33,427 nt of DNA from a bacterium. GTDB taxonomy: Bacteria; Hydrothermota; UBA3073; JACQXS01. The notes beneath the pieces were generated by a model. That model had not been told where the DNA came from. It saw only the letters and a list, made by a program, of their open reading frames with translations, and ran no database searches. Below, one piece after another: positions 2,857 through 32,807 of this stretch; position 1 is the stretch's first letter, and each line of letters begins with the position of its first letter. The stretch is from the NCBI GenBank assembly GCA_030605695.1, contig JAUWHX010000033.1:1-33427 (forward strand), written 5' to 3'. Made by a program: the position numbers and the translations under genes.

Positions 2857-2934
2857 GAAGCGAGAATTGGTGAAAACTTACCTGCGGGAATTTACTTTGT
2901 GAAGGTTCAAGAGTTTGAGGGTTTAAGGGTTTAA
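2857..2934 (+). pseudogene. Remnant of a type-IX-like C-terminal sorting domain
   Basis: One frame reads EARIGENLPAGIYFVKVQEF and continues EGLRV before a stop. NLPAGIYFVKV is the near-terminal strand seen in FlgD-like/Por secretion tails; the two intact versions nearby read VPSGIYFYKLRAGEF (3259-5994 gene) and FSKGIYFIQFKSGKF (giant gene). The normal ending, a basic strand such as RKIVILK, is replaced by residues encoded by the octamer array. A TGA stop lies just upstream in the same frame. I read it as the 3' scrap of a lost surface-protein gene whose end was taken over by the array. Confidence 0.6.
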
Positions 2935-3030
2935 GAGTTTAAGAGTTCAAGGGTTTAAGAGTTTAAGGGTTTAAGAGTTTAAGAGTTTAAGGGTTTAAGA
3001 GTTTAAGGGTTCAAGAGTTTAAGGGTTTAA
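2903..3030. repeat. Octamer tandem array, 16 units (GRGTTYAA)
   Basis: Sixteen consecutive 8 bp units fit GRGTTYAA, mostly GAGTTTAA or GGGTTTAA with occasional GGGTTCAA or GAGTTCAA. There are no spacers, so it is not a CRISPR array. The same octamer family occurs in the opposite orientation at 10575-10662 and as a short run at 24874-24904. The first four to five units lie in the reading frame of the sorting-tail remnant. Confidence 0.9.
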
Positions 3031-3047
3031 AGGTTCGTATTCTTTTT

Positions 3048-7345: not shown

Positions 7346-8521
7346 ATGAGACTCTATGAATATGAAGGGAAAATGTTGTTTAAGGAATTTGGAATCCCTG
7401 TCCCGCAAAGTGTCCTCATTGGAGACCCAAGAGAACTTGATAAAGTTATCTATCCCGCAGTCCTAAAAGCTCAGGTATTTATAGGCAAACGTGGTAAAGC
7501 AGGGGCTATAAAAATCGTAAACTCAAGACAAGAAGCAGAGCTTGAGATAAAAAACTTATTGGGTAGAGTTATTGCAGGATACGAGGTTAAGAGTGTGCTT
7601 ATTGAGGAGAAAATAGACATTGAAAAAGAGCTTTATTTAAGTGCTATCATTGACAGGAAACTCCACAAGCCACTTATTCTTGCATCCAGCGAAGGAGGAA
7701 TGGAAATAGAAGAAGTAGCAAAAAGCAATCCAGATGCGATTACAAAGCACTACTTTGAAGTTGGAGAATATCCAGAAGGTTGGACTGGAAGATGGATTGC
7801 CCGTGCTATTGGAGTTCCGAGTTCCCTTATCTCAAAAGCAAGCTCAATCATAAATAAGATGTATAAATTGTTTCTTGACTATGAGTGCAAGCTTGTAGAG
7901 ATAAATCCTCTTGCCATCACAAAAGACGGAAACCTTGTTGCATTGGATTCCAAAGTAGATTTAGATGAAGATGCAATGTATCGGCATCCAGAGTTGAAGA
8001 AACTGGGCATCTCGGCTCGTCATGAGGTTGGCGAACTAACCGAGAGAGAGAAGCTTGCGAAAAAAGCAGGAGTTCCTTATGTTGACCTTGATGGAGATAT
8101 TGGAGTTTTCCCTGGAGGTGCGGGTTTTGGTATTGCGAGCATTGATTTAATCAAGCACTTTGGCGGCAACCCTGCAAATTTTATGGACTCAGGCGGAGCT
8201 CCTACCCAAGAGAGACTTAGACTTATGATAGACCTCCTAATGAAGAATCCAAGAGTCAAGGTAATTTTCGGAGCAAGGTTTGGAGGAATCTCAAGATGTG
8301 ATGACTGGGCTCGTGCCATTTGTCAATATATTATGGAGAATAAGCCCGAGAAGCCAATGATTATGCGGATGGCAGGAAATATGGAACAAGAGGGGAGAAA
8401 GATATTTGAAAAATATAGACGCGAGGAGCCAGAACTCTTTAAGAATATAAAGATTTACAAATTTGACACTCCTATTGAGGAAGTCATAAAAGAAGCAATA
8501 AAAATAGCATTTAGTAGTTAG
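7346..8521 (+). CDS. sucC: Succinyl-CoA synthetase beta subunit (SucC-like)
   Basis: The 391-residue protein has the SucC layout: an ATP-grasp domain (MRLYEYEGKMLFKEFGIPVP, then PAVLKAQVFIGKRGKAGAIK, and LVEINPLAITKDGNLVALDSKVDLDEDA with metal-binding acidic residues) and a CoA-ligase domain (DLDGDIGVFPGGAGFGIASIDL, NFMDSGGAPTQERL). With SucD it makes ATP or GTP from succinyl-CoA in the TCA cycle. Several positions differ from textbook SucC (FPGGAGFG where NGAG is usual, SGGAPTQER where VGGGATKER is usual), so a related acid such as citrate or malate is possible. The last codons and the TAG stop lie inside the heptamer repeat that begins the four-helix-bundle element, so the native C-terminus may have been altered. 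Confidence 0.88.
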   Translation: MRLYEYEGKMLFKEFGIPVPQSVLIGDPRELDKVIYPAVLKAQVFIGKRGKAGAIKIVNSRQEAELEIKNLLGRVIAGYEVKSVLIEEKIDIEKELYLSAIIDRKLHKPLILASSEGGMEIEEVAKSNPDAITKHYFEVGEYPEGWTGRWIARAIGVPSSLISKASSIINKMYKLFLDYECKLVEINPLAITKDGNLVALDSKVDLDEDAMYRHPELKKLGISARHEVGELTEREKLAKKAGVPYVDLDGDIGVFPGGAGFGIASIDLIKHFGGNPANFMDSGGAPTQERLRLMIDLLMKNPRVKVIFGARFGGISRCDDWARAICQYIMENKPEKPMIMRMAGNMEQEGRKIFEKYRREEPELFKNIKIYKFDTPIEEVIKEAIKIAFSS

Positions 8522-8540
8522 CATTTAGTATTTAGTGATG
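8506..8540 (+). repeat. Heptamer array, left inverted end of the four-helix-bundle element
   Basis: Five 7 bp units run without gaps (AGCATTT, AGTAGTT, AGCATTT, AGTATTT, AGTGATG). The array contains the sucC stop (8519-8521) and the start codon of the next gene (8538-8540). The outer 15 bases GCATTTAGTAGTTAG are an exact inverted copy of 8915-8929. Confidence 0.85.
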
Positions 8541-8918
8541 AGAGAGAATTTTGGTTTTGAAGGACTTAAAGTTTATCAAAAAGCCATTGAACTCACTGAC
8601 AAGGTATTTTCTATTAGCAATGGGTTTTCGAAGAGAGTCCAATTTTCTTTAGGTGAGCAGATACGGAGGGCTTCACTTTCAATTCCCAATAATATTGCTG
8701 AAGGTAGTGGCAGAAGGCATAGAGCGGAAAAGAAGCAATTCTTCCAAACAGCACTTTCCTCGGCTTTTGAATGTGTGCCAATTTTAACCATAGCTCTTAG
8801 GCAAAACGAAATTACACAACAAGACTATGACCAAATTTATGAAAGTTGCTACGAAATTTCCAAAATGGTATCAGGACTTATTAAATCTGTGGATAAAATG
8901 CTAAATGCTAAAAACTAA
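8538..8918 (+). CDS. Four-helix-bundle protein, 23S rRNA intervening-sequence (S23) family
   Basis: The 126-residue protein has the family signature: FEGLKVYQKAIELTDKVF, then EQIRRASLSIPNNIAEGSGR (about residues 43-62), then helices with YESCYEISKMVSGLIKSVDK. Such proteins are encoded inside 23S rRNA intervening sequences and, as free genes, are abundant in many uncultured bacteria; the Avd protein of diversity-generating retroelements is a relative. Their biochemical role is not established, though a pentameric basic nucleic-acid binder is known for the family. Here the gene sits between sucC and sucD and is bounded by inverted heptamer arrays that encode its start and its last residues (MLNAKN). 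I use the ATG at 8538; a GTG one codon earlier is possible. There is no clear ribosome site, so coupling to sucC is likely. Confidence 0.88.
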   Translation: MRENFGFEGLKVYQKAIELTDKVFSISNGFSKRVQFSLGEQIRRASLSIPNNIAEGSGRRHRAEKKQFFQTALSSAFECVPILTIALRQNEITQQDYDQIYESCYEISKMVSGLIKSVDKMLNAKN

Positions 8919-8929
8919 CTACTAAATGC
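8900..8929 (+). repeat. Heptamer array, right inverted end of the four-helix-bundle element
   Basis: Four 7 bp units (GCTAAAT, GCTAAAA, ACTAACT, ACTAAAT) end in GC at 8929. CTAACTACTAAATGC (8915-8929) is the exact inverse of the outer end at 8507-8521. The array contains the stop of the four-helix-bundle gene and ends 10 bases before the sucD ATG. Confidence 0.85.
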
Positions 8930-8939
8930 TGCTGTAAAG

Positions 8940-9827
8940 ATGGCGATAATTATTGACGAAAATACGGAAACAATTGTTCAGGGGATTACCGGCACAAACG
9001 CTCAACTCCACACCAAGTTTATGCTGGATTATGGAACCCGCATCGTAGGAGGAGTAACTCCTGGCAAAGGAGGGCAGGTAGTTCATGGTGTGCCAGTTTA
9101 TGACACTGTTAAAGAATGCCTGGCTCATCATCCTAATGCAAAAGTCTCATCAATATGGGTGCCTGCAAGATTTACGCGAGATGCAATACTTGAGTCAATT
9201 GATGCAGGAATCCAGATAGTGATTGTTATCCCTGAAGGAATACCAATCCACGATATGTTATTTGTCCGCAAAAAAGCAAAGGAAAAAGGAGTAGTTGTAA
9301 TTGGGGGGAATACACCGGGAGTTATTTCACCCGGTAGAGCACTTCTTGGAATGCTTCCAAAGATTGCATTTAAACGCGGGAGGATTGGAACAGTTGCAAG
9401 AAGTGGAGCAATTACTTATTATATTGCAAATTCATTAAACCTTGAAGGGCTTGGCGAATCAACATCCGTCGGACTTGGTGGAGACCCGATTCTCGGCTCA
9501 AACTTTGAAGATGTATTGAAAATGTTTGAAGAAGACCCTGATACTGATGCTGTTGTTCTTGCTGGTGAGATTGGAGGTGTTTATGAAGAGCTTGCTGCAG
9601 AATTTATCAAGACAATGAAAAAGCCAGTAATAGGTTTTATAACAGGCAGGGTAGCACCTCAAGGCAAACGGCTTGGGCATGCTGGTGCAATAATTGAAGG
9701 TGAGCTTGGGACAGCACAAAGCAAAATAACTGCCCTAAAATCCTCAGGAGTTCTAATTGCCGAAACCCTTTCCGAAATACCCGTATTAGTCAAGAAAGCA
9801 TTAAAATATTTTAATAGTAACTTATAG
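8940..9827 (+). CDS. sucD: Succinyl-CoA synthetase alpha subunit (SucD-like)
   Basis: The 295-residue protein is a full-length SucD. TIVQGITGTNAQLHTKFMLDYG and GGVTPGKGGQ form the CoA-binding N-terminal domain, GGNTPGVISPGRALLGMLP follows, and the phosphorylated His is His247 in KRLGHAGAIIEGELGTAQSK. It partners SucC in substrate-level phosphorylation. The gene is normally next to sucC, but here a four-helix-bundle element separates them by 418 bp. There is no good ribosome site before the ATG; only weak TAAAG precedes it. The last codons and TAG stop come from a 10 bp repeat (9816-9845), as in sucC, where a heptamer array plays that part. Confidence 0.9.
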   Translation: MAIIIDENTETIVQGITGTNAQLHTKFMLDYGTRIVGGVTPGKGGQVVHGVPVYDTVKECLAHHPNAKVSSIWVPARFTRDAILESIDAGIQIVIVIPEGIPIHDMLFVRKKAKEKGVVVIGGNTPGVISPGRALLGMLPKIAFKRGRIGTVARSGAITYYIANSLNLEGLGESTSVGLGGDPILGSNFEDVLKMFEEDPDTDAVVLAGEIGGVYEELAAEFIKTMKKPVIGFITGRVAPQGKRLGHAGAIIEGELGTAQSKITALKSSGVLIAETLSEIPVLVKKALKYFNSNL

Positions 9828-10574: not shown

Positions 10575-10662
10575 ATCTAAACCTTTGAACCCTTAAACCC
10601 TTGAACTCTTAAACCCTTGAACTTTTAAACTCTTGAACCCTTAAACTCCTAAATACCTGAAT
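10575..10662. repeat. Octamer tandem array, about 11 units, between adaptor and ATPase genes
   Basis: The plus strand reads units such as CCTTAAAC, CCTTGAAC and TCTTAAAC, which are the reverse complement of the GRGTTYAA units at 2903-3030. The array begins one base past the stop codon of the MacA-type gene (minus-strand sense) and ends 16 bp before the ATPase start. Units at the stop-proximal end are more degenerate. Confidence 0.88.
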
Positions 10663-25676: not shown

Positions 25677-25718
25677 TATTAATCACTTTTGCATACTATA
25701 GCAAAAAAAGGAGGAGAA

Positions 25719-28700
25719 ATGAGAAGCTTTAATAAATTTATGCTCAGCTGTTTTTTAGCAACTGCAAGTTTAGTCGTAGGAGTCCAGATGGGATGGGCTG
25801 ATTTTTTTATACCTGATGTGAAGGTAAATGATGTTACTACGAATAACCAGAGCGGTGAAGGACGATGGATGGCTACACTCGGTGATACAGTATATGTAGT
25901 GTGGGCAGACCCGAGGACAGACACTGCTCACATATACTTTGCCAGATCTACAAATCGTGGAGCAACTTTTGGGTTAAGTAAAAAGGTGGATACAAATCCA
26001 GATAGTATGGACCAAATAATACCTTGTATCACAGTAGACCCCTCAGGAAACATCTATATTGCATGGATAGGTGGCAATACGGCTACAATGAAAGAGCTTC
26101 GCATCTACTTTGCTAAATCTACTAATGGAGGAGATAATTTTAGCTCCAGTATAATGGTGGATAACTCTACCCTTGAGGATAATGTAATACAGGTCTTTCC
26201 ATCAATTGCTGTTGATGGAGATTCAGTATATATTGCCTGGATGGATAACCGAAACTATGACTATAATGCTGGAGAGATGAAGTGGGATGTACATTTTGCG
26301 AGGTCATTAAATGGGGGAACGGGTTTTGAGAGCCCTATTCAGGTAAATGATGCTCTCTGCAATTTGGTATATGGGCCGGATGACGCGATGACTGCAATGG
26401 CAGTGGATGCTTTGCATAAAATTTATTTAGTATGGCAGGATGGGAGAAATGGAAATGCTGATATATATTTTGATAAATCTACGAATGGAGGAGTAAATTT
26501 TGGCACCAATGTCCCTGTAAATGATATAACATCGCCTGCCGGAGATTCACTCCAGTGTTACCCTTCCATAGCAGTAGGATATACGGATACAGTTTATGTT
26601 GCCTGGGAAGATTATAGGATGGGTGAAAATAACCGTCGCGTATACTTCAATAAGTCTTTGAATGGTGGAACAACTTTTGGAACTAATGTTCCTGCGAGTG
26701 ATACAATTCGTGAACCAAGTGCTGGAGAACCATCCATTGCTATTTCGTCAGACAAAATATATATTGCTTATATTGCACAGAGAGATGGACAAGAGAGAGT
26801 GAGGTGTGCAAGTTCCTGCGATGATGGCATTACCTGGAGAAGCGGATTTGCAGTGTCAGATACCTATAATATAGAGTTTAACTATCCATCCTGTGCAATG
26901 GGTCCGGGAGACAGTCTCTATGTAGTATGGGGAGACTCTCGTTTGTCAGGTATTGAGGATGATTGTGAAATCTATTTCTCTAAAGGCGAATATCCCGGGT
27001 TCAGTGGGCATATAACTGAAAATACCACCTGGGGACAGGATATTTTTATCTCTGGCGATGTATGGGTCGATTCCACTGTTACTTTGACTATTGCCTCCGG
27101 GGTCACTGTAACTTTTGATGCTCGCTCCGATGACCAGTATTATTTTTACCCGGCGGCTGACGCATCAGATACTGCAAAGTGCTCTATTTGGATATTGGAT
27201 ACGACAGCAGTTTTAAATGCTCAGGGTGGAGCAAAGGCGGACTCTATTGTATTCACATCCAATGCAGGTTCACCGGATACAGCAGATTGGGGAATGATTG
27301 CAGGATTTGGGAATATGACATTTGAGTATTGTGATATCGGATACAACTATACGATGGTGGGACTTAAGGATTTCAATGTCAGTAATTGCAAGGTTCACGA
27401 TTGCAAAGAGGATGCATTAGGTTATCATGGAGCGGAAATGAGTATCCCCGGCGTTGCTATATTGACACATAATACCATATATAACGCAAATGCGGGTATG
27501 TGGCTTGGTGCTCGCTCCCATACTATAACGCATAATACTATATACAATTGTGAAACAGGAATAGGACTTAGCGATTCTGGAACTTCTATTATAAACAGTA
27601 ATTCAATAACTAACTGTTCTAATGCAGGTATCCAGCTTGAAGACAGTGTTACCCCTACTATAACGCGAAACCAGATAACTAACGACGGCAATGGTATAGG
27701 AATAAGGGATAATGCGAATCCCTTCATTGGTGGAAGTCTTGTAAATGCAAATGATATATACAACAATTTTAACTGGAATATTCAAAACGACCACTCTGAT
27801 ACCGTAAAAGCCGAGTATAACTACTGGGGGGTTCTGACAAATAGTGGAATTGCGGCTACTATGGGAGGAAACCATCCTGACTTAGTTGATTACATCCCCT
27901 GGACAAATGTTGCCCACGATTCTGCTTATTCCCCACACCCGGGTCCAGTCTGGTGGGTAGATACCACAGGTGATGATGGCACAGGTGATGGAAGTTCAAG
28001 TAATCCATTCAGGACCATAGGTAAAGGATTATCTGAAGCACCTTACGATGATACAGTGATGGTAAGACCTGGAATCTATGATGCAGGAGAAGGAGAATTA
28101 TTCCCTCTCAATATGCCAAATGGGGTTGCACTTATGAGTGAGAAAGGACGCGACTCAACTACAATTAATGGAAGCAGTAGAGTAATTAAGTGCGATAATG
28201 TGGACACCAATACTGTCATCTCCGGCTTCACTATCACGGGAGGAAATAAATGGAGAGGAGCAGGGATATATTGCACTAATAATGCCAGCCCTCAAATAAT
28301 ATCTAACACTTTTTTTGAGAACATTGCTTCCCAGGGTGCCGGGATATGTTGTGAATTCAACTCCAATGCTGCAATAGAAGACAACCTCTTTATTTCTAAT
28401 AATGCTGACCAGGGTGCTGGGATATACATTGATTGGTCAGCTCCGCATATAACTAACAACACTTTAAGTAATAACTTTGGCACATTAGAAGGCGGACATA
28501 CAGAAGGAGTTATATATTGTGACGTTACTCAATTTGGGACCATAATATCTGAAAATACTATTACTGATAATGATGGAAGAGGCATTTATTGCAACAATAA
28601 TTCCGTAGGTTCAATTACATTTAATACGATTACTGGAGATACAATTCCTACCAGTGGTGGATGGAATGGTGCTGGAATATACTGTAGTAACAATTCGTCG

Positions 28701-31700
28701 CCGAACATTGAAGGGAATACTCTCTCTCTTAATAGAGCACGCAATGGTGGAGGTATTTCTTGTAATGGTGGAGGCACTAATCCAACAATCAAAGGAAACG
28801 CTATAACCAATAATAAAGCAGAACCTTCGGGTGGTGGTGGAGGCTTAGGAGGAGGTATTTTCATTCTTAATGATGCATCTCCTATGATAGATAGCAATAC
28901 TGTCACAGATAACAATGCAAAAGCTGGTGCTGGAATTTTTTGGTACGGCGGCAGCGGTGGAGATATTAGTCGGAATGTTTTAAAGTCAAATACTGCTGAT
29001 GCTAATGGAGGAGGTATTCTCTGCTTCCAAAGTTCTCCGAATATTTATGAAAATAGTATAATAGAAAATAATGCTGTCTATAATGGCGGAGCTATTTGCT
29101 GTTGGGATAATGCCAATCCCACAATAGAGGAAAATGTTATTGAGAGAAACATTGCCGATAGCTTAGGTGGCGGTATCTACTGCTTTAACAATTCCTCACC
29201 ACAGATTGTGGAAAATACAATTGTCGGAAATATTGGAACCTATGATAGTGGAATATGCTCTGCTGATAACTCAAATCCTAATATAGAGAGGAATGCTATA
29301 ATGGATAATGCTTGTGGGGTTTATTTCCTTCCAACATCAGGATTAGGAGGATTTGTAAGTGATAACAACATTTATTATAACACCTATCAGCCTGCACCAA
29401 CAGATTATGATATCATAAACGCTACCCTAGGCACCGTCGGTTTCCCTAACTGCTGGTGGGGAACCACTGACTCTGCCTCAATTGACGAAAATATAGATGG
29501 TGATGTTGCTTTTATGCTCCCTCTTGCTGCTCCTGCACCTACTGCCCCGGGCGAACCATCGACTGTGGATTCCGTTAGAATATACGATGACACTTACAGC
29601 AACAACCTTATCAATGTGAACTTTGGCGACACAATGTTCATTGAACTTGGTGGCACAGACTGGCGTTCTGGAACCCGTGACCCTGCTATGGTCATTCTTA
29701 AGAGTCTGACAGATACTTTTGGCATAGGATTAGCACTTGTTGAGACTGGCACTGCAACTGGCATATATCGCGGATATGCAGTAGTGGATACTGTGAGTAA
29801 CGACCTTTATAACCATATATCCGCAGATACTAATGGCTTTATAGTTGTGTGCTCCAATATTGATACTTTATGTGATACAGTATATATGCCAATTACGCCT
29901 CCTGTGATGTCAGCAGAGCCAACCTATACACAAGGCACAAGTAACCTTGTTTACTGGACAGGAGTCGCAGTAGAATATTACGCAGAATGTGATACTAATA
30001 GCAATTTTACCTTAATCCATAGTTTCAGTGGCTGGATTACAGATACATCTTATACCTTTACTTCTCTTGACGATGATGTTAAGTATTACTACCGCGTGAA
30101 GAAACGCCGGGCTCCTTTAGCTGAAAGTAATTGGTCAAATATCGTATTTTCCACTCAGGATACTACACCTCCTACTATTACCGACCTTACACCTCCGGAC
30201 AGTTCATATCTTGATACAACGATATTCACTATCTCTGCTAAATATGCAGATAGTCCATCATCAGGAATTGATACAAACTCAGTTATCATTGAGCTTGATG
30301 GTGCTGATATTACTTCCCAGGCAACAGTTACTGATTCTATGGTTCGTTATACTCCTGCATCAGCTCTTTCGGACACTATTCATACAGTGCTTGTTAAAGT
30401 GAGTGATAATGTGGGCAACCCAGCAGATTCTGCTATCTGGTCTTTTGAGGTAGATACTACTCAACCTCTTGCCCCCACACTAATCTCCCCGAATGCCTGC
30501 TGGCTTAATGATACATCGGTTGCTTTTGAATGGACTGCAGTTACAAAAGGAAGTCAGAAGTCAGAAATCAGAAGTCAGAAAATAGGCAGTTTCAACCACG
30601 GGCTTTTAACTACGAGGCGAGCCTCTCTTAACTCCGAGGCGAACCTCTCTCAACTCCGAGGTGAGCCTCTCTCAATTCTTAACTTTAAATCTGCTCCTAT
30701 TAGGTATGTGCTTCAGATAGATACCAATCTTACCTTCCCAGTCCCAGTAGTTGATACTACCACATCAACCAACGATACCCTCAGTTTTAGCGACGCCCAA
30801 TATTTCTGGAGAGTCGGTGCATTTGACTCTGCTGGTAACATAGGCAATTTCTCTGACCCATTCTGGTTCGGGGTAGATACTACGGTCCCTTACATCACCA
30901 ACGTATTCCCTCCAGCCGACACATTGATAGCCGATAGTCTCCCCACCATTAAAGCAAAATACATTGATGAGCTATCAGAAATTGATACAGCAGAGGTTGT
31001 GCTTGAAGTTGATGGCAATCCTGTTTCAGCAACAATAACTGATTCTATGGTAAGTTATACTCCTTCAACTGCACTTGCAGATACAATTCACTCGGTAACC
31101 GTTCACATCAAGGACAATGCAGGCAATCCTGCTTCTAGGAGCTGGTATTTTGAGGTAGATGCCAATGCACCAACAATTCCAACACTCGTCCAGCCAACTG
31201 GTGGCGTGTGGCAAGACTCGTTGCCTGTTCATTTTGAGTGGACTACAGTTACAAAAGGGATTAAGCTATTAAGCCATCAAGCTATCAAGCTATCAAGTTG
31301 GAAAAAAACAAAGAACACAAAAATTTACTATGTGATTCAGATAGACACAACCACAAGTTTCACAACCCCCGTTCTTACGGACACGACCACGGACACGGAT
31401 TACGATACTACTCTCTTTGAAGGTTATTTCTACTGGAAAATAATGGCTTATGACTCTGCCGGAAATCCAGGTTCCTGGACAGCGATAGATAGCTTTGGAG
31501 TAGATACTACTAATCCTTCAGTGCCTATATTGATTTCTCCTTTAGACAGTGCTTATTTAAATGACAGCACAGTCCATTTTGAATGGAACCTTGCAACTGA
31601 TGACTTGAGTGGTGTTAGTCACTATCAGCTCCAGGTTGATACTACGGATGGCTTTGCAGATCCTCTCATTGATACTATTCTATCGGACACAGTTTACCTT

Positions 31701-32807
31701 GGAGATTTTGATGATACTGAAGATTGGCTCAAGACAACCCCCCACTTACGCTGGAGAGTAAGAACCGTTGACAAGGCAACAAATAAAAGTGAATGGTCAG
31801 CAGTCCGGATTTTTGGGATTGATACCGAGACGCCAGATAAGCCAACACTTGTGCAACCGATAGATGGTGTATGGCAAGACTCGTTGCCTGTTCATTTTGA
31901 ATGGACTGCAGTTGCAAAATTGGCATTCCTCAATTCTGATAAACTAACGAACCAACAAACTAACAAGCTAACTCCTAACCCCTATCCCCTATCCCCTAAT
32001 AAAGCATCGCCAATAAAGTATGTAATTCAAGTGGATACAACTACAAGTTTCACAACCCCTGTAATTACGGACACGGTCACGGACACGAACTACGACACTA
32101 CTCTCTTTGAAGATTACTTCTATTGGAAGATAATGGCTTATGACTCTGCCGGAAATCCAGGTTCCTGGACAGCAATAGACAGCTTTGGAGTTGACACAAC
32201 TTCTCCCGTAATAGATAGCACAACAGTCTGGGAAGACACGGTTTCTTTCTGGGGTCCGTTCCCAGTGGAAACAAAAATAACCGATAACTTTGTATTTAAC
32301 AGTCCTGTGCTGTTTTATAGAACAAGCGTAGATACAGACTGGGTAGCTGATACTATGAATTCACTTGGAGGAGATTGGTATATAGATTCAATCCCGGTGC
32401 AGACACCACAAGATAGCATTATAGTTGACTATTACTTGACCGCTAAGGATTATGCAGGCAATAATTCAAGAGACCCAAGTTCCGGTTTATACTCTTTTAT
32501 TCTCCGAATCAAACCGTCTGCCCAAGAGGACAAAAAGGTGCCTGACAAATTCATATTGTTCTCACCTACTCCAAATCCATCTCTGAGAAGCATACAGATT
32601 AAGTATGGATTGCCAGAAAAAGCAAATATAACTTTATCTATCTATGACATCTCGGGCAGACTAGTGAAGACTTTTTACTCCGGCACGCCAGAAAAAGGTT
32701 ATTATACTATTAGTCTAAACTGTAAGGAATTCTCTAAAGGCATCTACTTTATCCAGTTCAAAAGTGGTAAATTTACAGATAGGAAGAAGTTCATAATATT
32801 GCAATAA
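25719..32807 (+). CDS. Giant secreted protein: sialidase-like repeats, beta-helices, Ig/Fn3 domains, sorting tail
   Basis: From the ATG with the strong SD (25719) the protein has about 2362 residues. It starts with a signal peptide (MLSCFLATASLVVGVQMGWA). Residues about 31-430 are BNR/sialidase-like repeats (VYVAWEDYRMGENNRRVYFN type). About 430-735 form a right-handed parallel beta-helix (HTITHNTIYNCETGIGL). About 745-838 is a DUF1565-like segment (DDGTGDGSSSNPFRTIGKGL), followed to about 1228 by a second beta-helix with a cysteine at the same place in many coils. About 1280-2260 are Fn3/Ig-like domains with FEWTAVTKG and YVIQIDTTTSFTTPV motifs, three of which carry in-frame short-unit DNA arrays. 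The end (PNPSLRSIQIKYGLPEKANI to KKFIILQ) is a type-IX-like sorting domain. A surface adhesin or glycan-binding role is likely; no catalytic residues were identified. Confidence 0.88.
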   Translation: MRSFNKFMLSCFLATASLVVGVQMGWADFFIPDVKVNDVTTNNQSGEGRWMATLGDTVYVVWADPRTDTAHIYFARSTNRGATFGLSKKVDTNPDSMDQIIPCITVDPSGNIYIAWIGGNTATMKELRIYFAKSTNGGDNFSSSIMVDNSTLEDNVIQVFPSIAVDGDSVYIAWMDNRNYDYNAGEMKWDVHFARSLNGGTGFESPIQVNDALCNLVYGPDDAMTAMAVDALHKIYLVWQDGRNGNADIYFDKSTNGGVNFGTNVPVNDITSPAGDSLQCYPSIAVGYTDTVYVAWEDYRMGENNRRVYFNKSLNGGTTFGTNVPASDTIREPSAGEPSIAISSDKIYIAYIAQRDGQERVRCASSCDDGITWRSGFAVSDTYNIEFNYPSCAMGPGDSLYVVWGDSRLSGIEDDCEIYFSKGEYPGFSGHITENTTWGQDIFISGDVWVDSTVTLTIASGVTVTFDARSDDQYYFYPAADASDTAKCSIWILDTTAVLNAQGGAKADSIVFTSNAGSPDTADWGMIAGFGNMTFEYCDIGYNYTMVGLKDFNVSNCKVHDCKEDALGYHGAEMSIPGVAILTHNTIYNANAGMWLGARSHTITHNTIYNCETGIGLSDSGTSIINSNSITNCSNAGIQLEDSVTPTITRNQITNDGNGIGIRDNANPFIGGSLVNANDIYNNFNWNIQNDHSDTVKAEYNYWGVLTNSGIAATMGGNHPDLVDYIPWTNVAHDSAYSPHPGPVWWVDTTGDDGTGDGSSSNPFRTIGKGLSEAPYDDTVMVRPGIYDAGEGELFPLNMPNGVALMSEKGRDSTTINGSSRVIKCDNVDTNTVISGFTITGGNKWRGAGIYCTNNASPQIISNTFFENIASQGAGICCEFNSNAAIEDNLFISNNADQGAGIYIDWSAPHITNNTLSNNFGTLEGGHTEGVIYCDVTQFGTIISENTITDNDGRGIYCNNNSVGSITFNTITGDTIPTSGGWNGAGIYCSNNSSPNIEGNTLSLNRARNGGGISCNGGGTNPTIKGNAITNNKAEPSGGGGGLGGGIFILNDASPMIDSNTVTDNNAKAGAGIFWYGGSGGDISRNVLKSNTADANGGGILCFQSSPNIYENSIIENNAVYNGGAICCWDNANPTIEENVIERNIADSLGGGIYCFNNSSPQIVENTIVGNIGTYDSGICSADNSNPNIERNAIMDNACGVYFLPTSGLGGFVSDNNIYYNTYQPAPTDYDIINATLGTVGFPNCWWGTTDSASIDENIDGDVAFMLPLAAPAPTAPGEPSTVDSVRIYDDTYSNNLINVNFGDTMFIELGGTDWRSGTRDPAMVILKSLTDTFGIGLALVETGTATGIYRGYAVVDTVSNDLYNHISADTNGFIVVCSNIDTLCDTVYMPITPPVMSAEPTYTQGTSNLVYWTGVAVEYYAECDTNSNFTLIHSFSGWITDTSYTFTSLDDDVKYYYRVKKRRAPLAESNWSNIVFSTQDTTPPTITDLTPPDSSYLDTTIFTISAKYADSPSSGIDTNSVIIELDGADITSQATVTDSMVRYTPASALSDTIHTVLVKVSDNVGNPADSAIWSFEVDTTQPLAPTLISPNACWLNDTSVAFEWTAVTKGSQKSEIRSQKIGSFNHGLLTTRRASLNSEANLSQLRGEPLSILNFKSAPIRYVLQIDTNLTFPVPVVDTTTSTNDTLSFSDAQYFWRVGAFDSAGNIGNFSDPFWFGVDTTVPYITNVFPPADTLIADSLPTIKAKYIDELSEIDTAEVVLEVDGNPVSATITDSMVSYTPSTALADTIHSVTVHIKDNAGNPASRSWYFEVDANAPTIPTLVQPTGGVWQDSLPVHFEWTTVTKGIKLLSHQAIKLSSWKKTKNTKIYYVIQIDTTTSFTTPVLTDTTTDTDYDTTLFEGYFYWKIMAYDSAGNPGSWTAIDSFGVDTTNPSVPILISPLDSAYLNDSTVHFEWNLATDDLSGVSHYQLQVDTTDGFADPLIDTILSDTVYLGDFDDTEDWLKTTPHLRWRVRTVDKATNKSEWSAVRIFGIDTETPDKPTLVQPIDGVWQDSLPVHFEWTAVAKLAFLNSDKLTNQQTNKLTPNPYPLSPNKASPIKYVIQVDTTTSFTTPVITDTVTDTNYDTTLFEDYFYWKIMAYDSAGNPGSWTAIDSFGVDTTSPVIDSTTVWEDTVSFWGPFPVETKITDNFVFNSPVLFYRTSVDTDWVADTMNSLGGDWYIDSIPVQTPQDSIIVDYYLTAKDYAGNNSRDPSSGLYSFILRIKPSAQEDKKVPDKFILFSPTPNPSLRSIQIKYGLPEKANITLSIYDISGRLVKTFYSGTPEKGYYTISLNCKEFSKGIYFIQFKSGKFTDRKKFIILQ
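28240..29290 (+). other. Beta-helix coils with a cysteine ladder
   Basis: About ten successive coils of the giant protein place cysteine at the same position of a GIYC-type motif: GAGIYCTNNASP, GAGICCEFNSN, GVIYCD, GIYCNNNS, GIYCSNNSSP, GGISCNGGG, GGILCFQSSP, GAICCWDNANP, GGIYCFNNSSP, GICSADNSNP. The stacked cysteines would lie one above another on one face of the helix. Confidence 0.6.
30550..30584 (+). repeat. In-frame heptamer array in the giant gene (site 1)
   Basis: Four exact or near-exact GAAGTCA heptamers (30550-30577), then a degenerate fifth, follow directly after the codons for WTAVTKG. They encode SQKSEIRSQKI-type sequence unlike the rest of the protein. Confidence 0.8.
30609..30674 (+). 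repeat. Three 22 bp tandem repeats in the giant gene (site 1)
   Basis: Three 22 bp units (each ACTMCGAGGCGARCCTCTCT plus two bases, with small changes) lie 24 bp after the heptamers. Each unit holds GAGG and CCTC that can form a small hairpin. Three units total 66 bp, so the frame is kept although one unit would shift it. Confidence 0.85.
31165..31505 (+). repeat. Duplicated Ig-like domain, copy A
   Basis: The segments on both sides of the array are nearly identical to 31825-32190 (about 48 bases with 3 differences before the array and about 89 bases with 6 differences after it). The array between them is unrelated in the two copies. Confidence 0.85.
31260..31299 (+). repeat. In-frame octamer array in the giant gene (site 2)
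   Basis: Five 8 bp units fit ATYAAGCY (ATTAAGCT, ATTAAGCC, ATCAAGCT twice, ATCAAGTT). They begin directly after WTTVTKG codons, the same place as sites 1 and 3. Confidence 0.85.
31825..32190 (+). repeat. Duplicated Ig-like domain, copy B
   Basis: This is the partner of 31165-31505, with a different and longer array at the same loop. Confidence 0.85.
31936..32003 (+). repeat. In-frame octamer plus heptamer array in the giant gene (site 3)
   Basis: Five octamers of the CTAACRAA type (31936-31975) change to four heptamers (TAACCCC, TATCCCC twice, TAATAAA; 31976-32003). The array lies directly after WTAVAK codons plus a short linker. Confidence 0.85.

Follow-up and report, generated by a model that had tools for sequence, protein, structure and literature searches.

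A four-helix-bundle (S23) gene between inverted heptamer arrays in the sucC–sucD gap, probably one copy of a mobile intervening-sequence-type element

The window, a 33,427-nucleotide stretch of DNA from a bacterium of the Hydrothermota (contig JAUWHX010000033.1), probably carries one copy of a mobile element of the intervening sequence (IVS) type, in which a gene of the S23 (four-helix-bundle) family lies between inverted arrays of short tandem units. No paper linking S23 genes to arrays, or describing non-rRNA S23 genes as array-bounded mobile elements, was found in the open-access literature.

The sucC, S23, and sucD genes all run in one direction (Table 1). The S23 protein is a member of PF05635 (E 8e-32, 110 bits against a curated cut-off of 33.8) and scores above the cut-off of TIGR02436 (E 5e-30, 104 bits; cut-off 24), and the family profile matches the solved structures 2GSC (Xcc0516, E 2.5e-35) and 2RLD. 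Tandem Repeats Finder identifies 7/14-bp arrays at 8505-8536 and 8896-8930, and the best inverted repeat joins 8506-8535 with 8901-8930 (30 nt, 90% complementary). These results bear out the preliminary description of the locus as an S23-family gene between mutually inverted 7-bp arrays. The outer 16 nt of the arms are identical (AGCATTTAGTAGTTAG / CTAACTACTAAATGCT), where 15 had been counted. The arrays had also been said to supply the stops of sucC and S23 as well as the S23 start. Both stops do fall within arrays, that of S23 being the TAA at 8916-8918; the GTG start codon ends at the left-array edge, and the ATG follows directly after the array.

Table 1. Features of the sucC–S23–sucD locus (window coordinates) and array units of the four S23 elements of the same genome (G000)
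Feature	Position	Strand	Remarks
sucC, host gene upstream of S23	7346..8521	+	stop TAG 8519-8521 within left array
Left arm, 7-bp array (TAGCATT TAGTAGT TAGCATT TAGTATT TAGT)	8505..8536	+	Tandem Repeats Finder and inverted-repeat match
S23 / four-helix-bundle gene, 126-127 aa	8538..8918 (ATG)	+	GTG 8535 alternative start; PF05635, TIGR02436
Right arm, inverted 7-bp array AAATGCTAAATGCTAAAAACTAACTACTAAATGCT	8896..8931	+	holds S23 stop; Tandem Repeats Finder
sucD, host gene downstream of S23	8940..9827	+	start ~9 bp past right arm
Window element			array unit TTTAGTA
C50 element			array unit CACGAACC
C44 element			array unit GGTTTGAA; left arm short, weak
C72 element			array unit GTAGAAATTA, ~11 bp

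The match between the window arms is not due to chance, because its local score of 45 exceeds the 99th percentile (28) of scores between arms taken from different elements and is reached by 0 of 100 shuffles. In RNA prediction, the minimum-energy and centroid structures agree in pairing the arms over 17+13 bp; the folding z-score of the whole element is modest (-1.44). The earlier suggestion that the ends could pair is supported by the inverted arms together with this model, on which pairing in RNA is considered quite likely. S23 is the sole ORF inside the element. Two marks of a DNA transposon or insertion sequence, a target-site duplication and an encoded transposase, are missing.

Flanking arrays appear to be the rule for S23 genes. 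A profile search finds four PF05635 genes in the genome of the window (G000, estimated to be 84% complete), the window copy included, and all four are flanked on both sides by inverted short-unit arrays with a different unit in each (Table 1). Their absence from the other S23 genes of this genome would have spoken against the earlier proposal of an IVS-like element; they are present, and inverted, in the remaining three. At C72 (L003 1866-2000), the gene that follows, which probably encodes a lipoprotein, takes its N-terminal part from the right array (MRNRERINFHKFLSISTNFHKF...). For 86 S23 genes from G000 and its relatives, the left flank was compared with the reverse-complemented right flank of the same element; the median score is 30.5 versus 16 between elements, and for 68 genes no more than 1 of 100 shuffles attains the arm score. 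No matching signal is obtained when the flanks of these 86 genes are compared in direct orientation. Named genomes spanning many phyla (among them Patescibacteria, Bacteroidota, Planctomycetota, Nitrospirota, Desulfobacterota, Acidobacteria, and an archaeon) supply 77 S23 genes, of which 62 pass the same shuffle test. In a control restricted to non-coding flanks, a score of at least 24 is attained by 97 of 168 S23 genes (58%) versus 20 of 900 other genes (2%) in the sampled genomes. Against the mobile-element reading, a clear array pair is absent for about one fifth of S23 genes. The array unit varies between elements, and the two arms of any one element match. Left arms are C-poor on the sense strand (A.37, G.26, T.26, C.10), and the arrays therefore have a constant polarity towards the S23 gene. 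In one element (element A of G014:C41), part of the left-arm heptamer array also belongs to a higher-order tandem repeat of ~54 bp.

As judged from pairwise comparison, array type goes with S23 protein type at unrelated sites. Similar arrays accompany 60% of S23 pairs that are >70% identical and occupy non-homologous sites, 16.5% of such pairs at 60-70% identity, and about 1% of those at <50%; when arms are permuted among elements, the observed value is reached in 0 of 2000 permutations. Among the 15 closest pairs, the two that involve L268 may represent one site. By sequence comparison, S23 and its arms form a single unit, in which the matching arms travel with their own gene. The S23 protein, by its dN/dS values, is under purifying selection (0.02-0.13 in seven of eight pairs and 0.59 in one).

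Arrays also occur without S23. Strict 7/8-bp arrays number 45 in ~543 kb from 13 S23-containing genomes versus 1 in ~513 kb from 13 S23-free genomes (p 1e-4). These counts come from sampled stretches, not whole genomes, and the contrast is dominated by G008, which contributes 31 of the 45 arrays in 160 kb; under a loose repeat definition, the array-density correlation is weak (rho 0.43, p 0.04). Inverted array pairs lacking S23 exist and are few in the sampled stretches. Several repeats in the literature are 7-bp arrays like those of the S23 elements, namely those of Xanthomonas (GGGAATC) and Nostoc (PMC4692102) and the TAACTGA arrays of Beggiatoaceae (MacGregor 2015, PMC4679880), and the Xanthomonas heptamers, like S23-element arms, often form convergent inverted pairs. 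In two xanthomonads, Rehm et al. 2015 counted 186 and 183 arrays of GGGAATC, among which are 70-75 convergent pairs, and reported that heptameric repeats are generally not associated with mobile elements (PMC4692102). Neither paper mentions S23.

Such findings invite an account in which the arrays themselves are mobile or self-spreading, through slippage and template switching or through an unknown factor, and S23 is a passenger or a repeatedly caught host gene. It would accommodate the abundance of S23-less arrays in some genomes, such as G008, and their presence in the window, the existence of S23-less inverted pairs (70-75 in Xanthomonas), and a solo array in the sucC–sucD gap of genome G006. 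However, it does not explain why array type tracks S23 protein type at unrelated sites, why inverted pairs are rare around other genes, or why S23-free genomes are almost without arrays, the last point being subject to the weight of G008. This account remains viable but rather unlikely.

S23 elements come and go as units between close relatives. A gene always found at sucC–sucD would have countered the earlier suggestion that the element may be mobile. In the sister species G001, whose DNA is 94-96% identical on both sides, the sucC–sucD gap holds a different S23 (33% identical in amino acids) within arrays of ACAGAAT units, unlike those of the window. In G006, which belongs to the order of G000, the solo array stands alone in this gap and has TAGTAGTTAGCATTT in common with a window arm; it may be either a remnant or an older target. 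The C50 site is cleanly empty in G001 (flanks 87-92%), and in G006 it is occupied by a different S23, which is broken and has other arms. Between G011 and G014, two elements whose S23 proteins are 99% identical have been swapped between two sites ~1 kb apart; the inner arrays went with the S23 genes, and the outermost array units remained at the sites. One Nostoc plasmid site is empty in strain C057, filled in N. edaphicum (C052), and occupied in Nostoc sp. ATCC 53789 (L302) by an inverted array pair of ~200 bp without S23, likely a non-autonomous derivative. Similarly, a site filled in Calothrix brevissima stands empty in both Tolypothrix and N. carneum. No target-site duplications were seen at the compared empty and filled sites, and 12 to ~40 bp of target are replaced at insertion sites. 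These alignments demonstrate, at the level of DNA comparison, that close relatives differ at gene junctions by insertion, loss, exchange, and replacement of the unit, and S23 with its arrays is very probably one mobile unit on an evolutionary time scale. A phage origin found no match among phage records. The set L268/L280/L289 was considered as a case of transfer between phyla and dropped; L280 and L289 lie at one gene junction, and misassignment of the Limnohabitans bin is possible.

The same comparisons bear on the possibility that S23 is an ordinary host gene with regulatory array stems and no mobility, species differences arising solely by loss and by horizontal replacement through homologous recombination. 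Purifying selection on S23 is compatible with this possibility, as is the joint persistence of S23 and array type in some orthologous pairs (G000/G002 at C44 and G000/G003 at C72), and the G011/G014 swap could involve recombination in the shared outer array units. Against it stand the empty sites in close relatives, the many unrelated sites, and the presence of elements in 23S rRNA and tRNA operons across phyla, which make a purely static gene improbable.

The sites occupied by mobile S23 elements are mostly co-directional. The upstream neighbor is oriented with S23 in 79 of 81 cases versus 121 of 152 controls, and both neighbors are in 67 of 79 versus 97 of 152. Elements lie in tRNA-tRNA gaps of six genomes (L100, L101, L103, L104, L106, and L114), three of which (L100, L104, and L106) share an occupied tRNA-Ser(tga)/tRNA-Ser(gct) gap. 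In three further cases (L041, L046, and L040 in G013, G015, and G037), the element is immediately upstream of cas2, and the gene upstream of S23 is cas1-like by eye, without Pfam confirmation; in two cyanobacterial plasmids, it lies between cas6 and cas4. In Azospirillum lipoferum, an S23 element lies inside the 23S rRNA.

The Azospirillum insert links the S23 elements to the rRNA IVSs. Its arms (TCAGAGGACGGATGACAGAGG... / ...CCGTCCTCTGTC...) consist of tandem short units with a C-poor 5′ arm, as in the window element. In the Coxiella 23S IVS, 2-3 tandem heptamers GACAGAT precede the S23 ORF, and RNase III cuts at the first heptamer repeat; against the mobile-element reading, the authors think that S23p is not produced in vivo (PMC4990558). 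On the basis of the similar Azospirillum arms and the Coxiella heptamers, rRNA IVSs and array-bounded S23 elements are taken to be of one kind, an assignment that is very likely correct. Like the 23S rRNA IVSs of Coxiella and Leptospira, the window element has an S23 ORF in the predicted loop between pairable ends, and its arms are heptamer arrays like those of Coxiella and Azospirillum. It thus meets two criteria for an IVS, an S23 ORF bounded by ends predicted to pair and the shared end architecture of tandem short units with a C-poor 5′ arm, but fails that of 23S location, since its neighbors are protein genes in an mRNA operon, and RNase III excision has not been shown. The proposal of a free-standing IVS-like element is supported by these parallels.

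The following mechanism is inferred. The element would be transcribed in sense from the host operon, and the stem formed by its two arms would enclose the S23 gene as a loop. RNase III may then cut this stem as in rRNA IVSs, in keeping with the earlier suggestion that the RNA may be cut out or processed, an inference by analogy that is only slightly favored; such cutting is proposed to make the interruption of an operon, tRNA, or rRNA transcript tolerable. An S23 oligomer would bind arrays of its own type, as DNA or RNA, and would thereby act as the specificity factor for spread, with host enzymes cutting and joining. That S23 recognizes its cognate arrays is likewise only inferred, with the odds evenly balanced. 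Solo arrays and S23-less array pairs would be derivatives of full elements. RNA-level selection on the stem leaves no signal by G.U bias, arm mismatches showing no excess of G.U over A.C (127 vs 116, p 0.52); the arms may therefore be kept alike at the DNA level, where a DNA-level process would suffice. To our knowledge, S23 proteins have no nuclease or recombinase activity, and autonomous movement is for this reason unproven.

RAYT genes are flanked by inverted repeats that have dispersed genomic copies, and the S23 element resembles REPIN/RAYT systems in having a gene between inverted repeats and dispersed repeat copies in the genome. In a mechanism of this type, a Y1 (HUH) transposase acting in trans would mobilize hairpin-forming array pairs, S23 being accessory, and Y1_Tnp is indeed present in 29 of 34 S23-containing versus 8 of 26 S23-free genomes. 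However, the Y1-positive, S23-free genomes G032 and G051 are almost without arrays, and the Y1-negative genomes G004 and G058 do carry array-flanked S23 genes. The association may merely mark genomes rich in mobile DNA. Unlike REPIN/RAYT, moreover, the S23 element contains no HUH transposase, the Y1 genes being located elsewhere, and its repeat unit differs per element. The Y1 transposase was rejected as the array source, as it co-occurs with S23 but the arrays do not track it, and the trans mechanism is quite improbable.

PF05635 resembles Avd of diversity-generating retroelements, a four-helix bundle and distant homolog of S23 (PMC10053308). A retroelement reading, in which S23 as an Avd relative delivers the RNA of the element to a reverse transcriptase for copying into new sites, can draw on the sense orientation of the elements to transcription and on the weak Avd similarity of the window S23 (bAvd E 7e-5; DivGenRetAVD E 3e-5, both under curated cut-offs; 24 bits against the Avd equivalog cut-off of 80, which is not met), but it is largely refuted in this phylum and scarcely tenable, given that RVT_1 is found in 1 of 60 genomes searched and not in G000 (84% complete), and that S23 elements, unlike Avd systems, have no reverse transcriptase and no template or variable repeats that could be seen.

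The free-standing four-helix-bundle proteins of TIGR02436 / PF05635 (2GSC Xcc0516 and 2RLD) belong to the same family as the window S23, and nothing was found that describes them as mobile elements bounded by arrays. A tentative generalization, held with somewhat less than even confidence, is that a very widespread class of minimal mobile elements has S23 proteins as its specificity factors, each type recognizing its own array, moving the unit into gene junctions and tRNA/rRNA operons, and seeding the dispersed 7/8-bp arrays known from separate descriptions in many bacteria, with the rRNA IVS as the special case that was noticed first. If this is true, the many genes annotated as "four helix bundle protein" are placed in a context and given a role that can be tested, one origin of the heptamer arrays dispersed in bacterial genomes is explained, and the old question of how rRNA IVSs spread becomes testable in ordinary mRNA operons. 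It would also be relevant to the cas, sucCD, and tRNA operons that bear S23 inserts.

Further arrays lie elsewhere in the window. Two long 8-bp arrays without S23, at 2904-3035 (GGTTTAAG) and 10578-10646 (TAAACCCT), are of the unit type found in the right-hand array of the S23 element C44. Arrays of 7, 8, and 22 bp at 30550-30675, 31263-31297, and 31941-31999 lie inside an ORF of 2372 aa (25689-32807), where they form in-frame low-complexity inserts between protein repeats.
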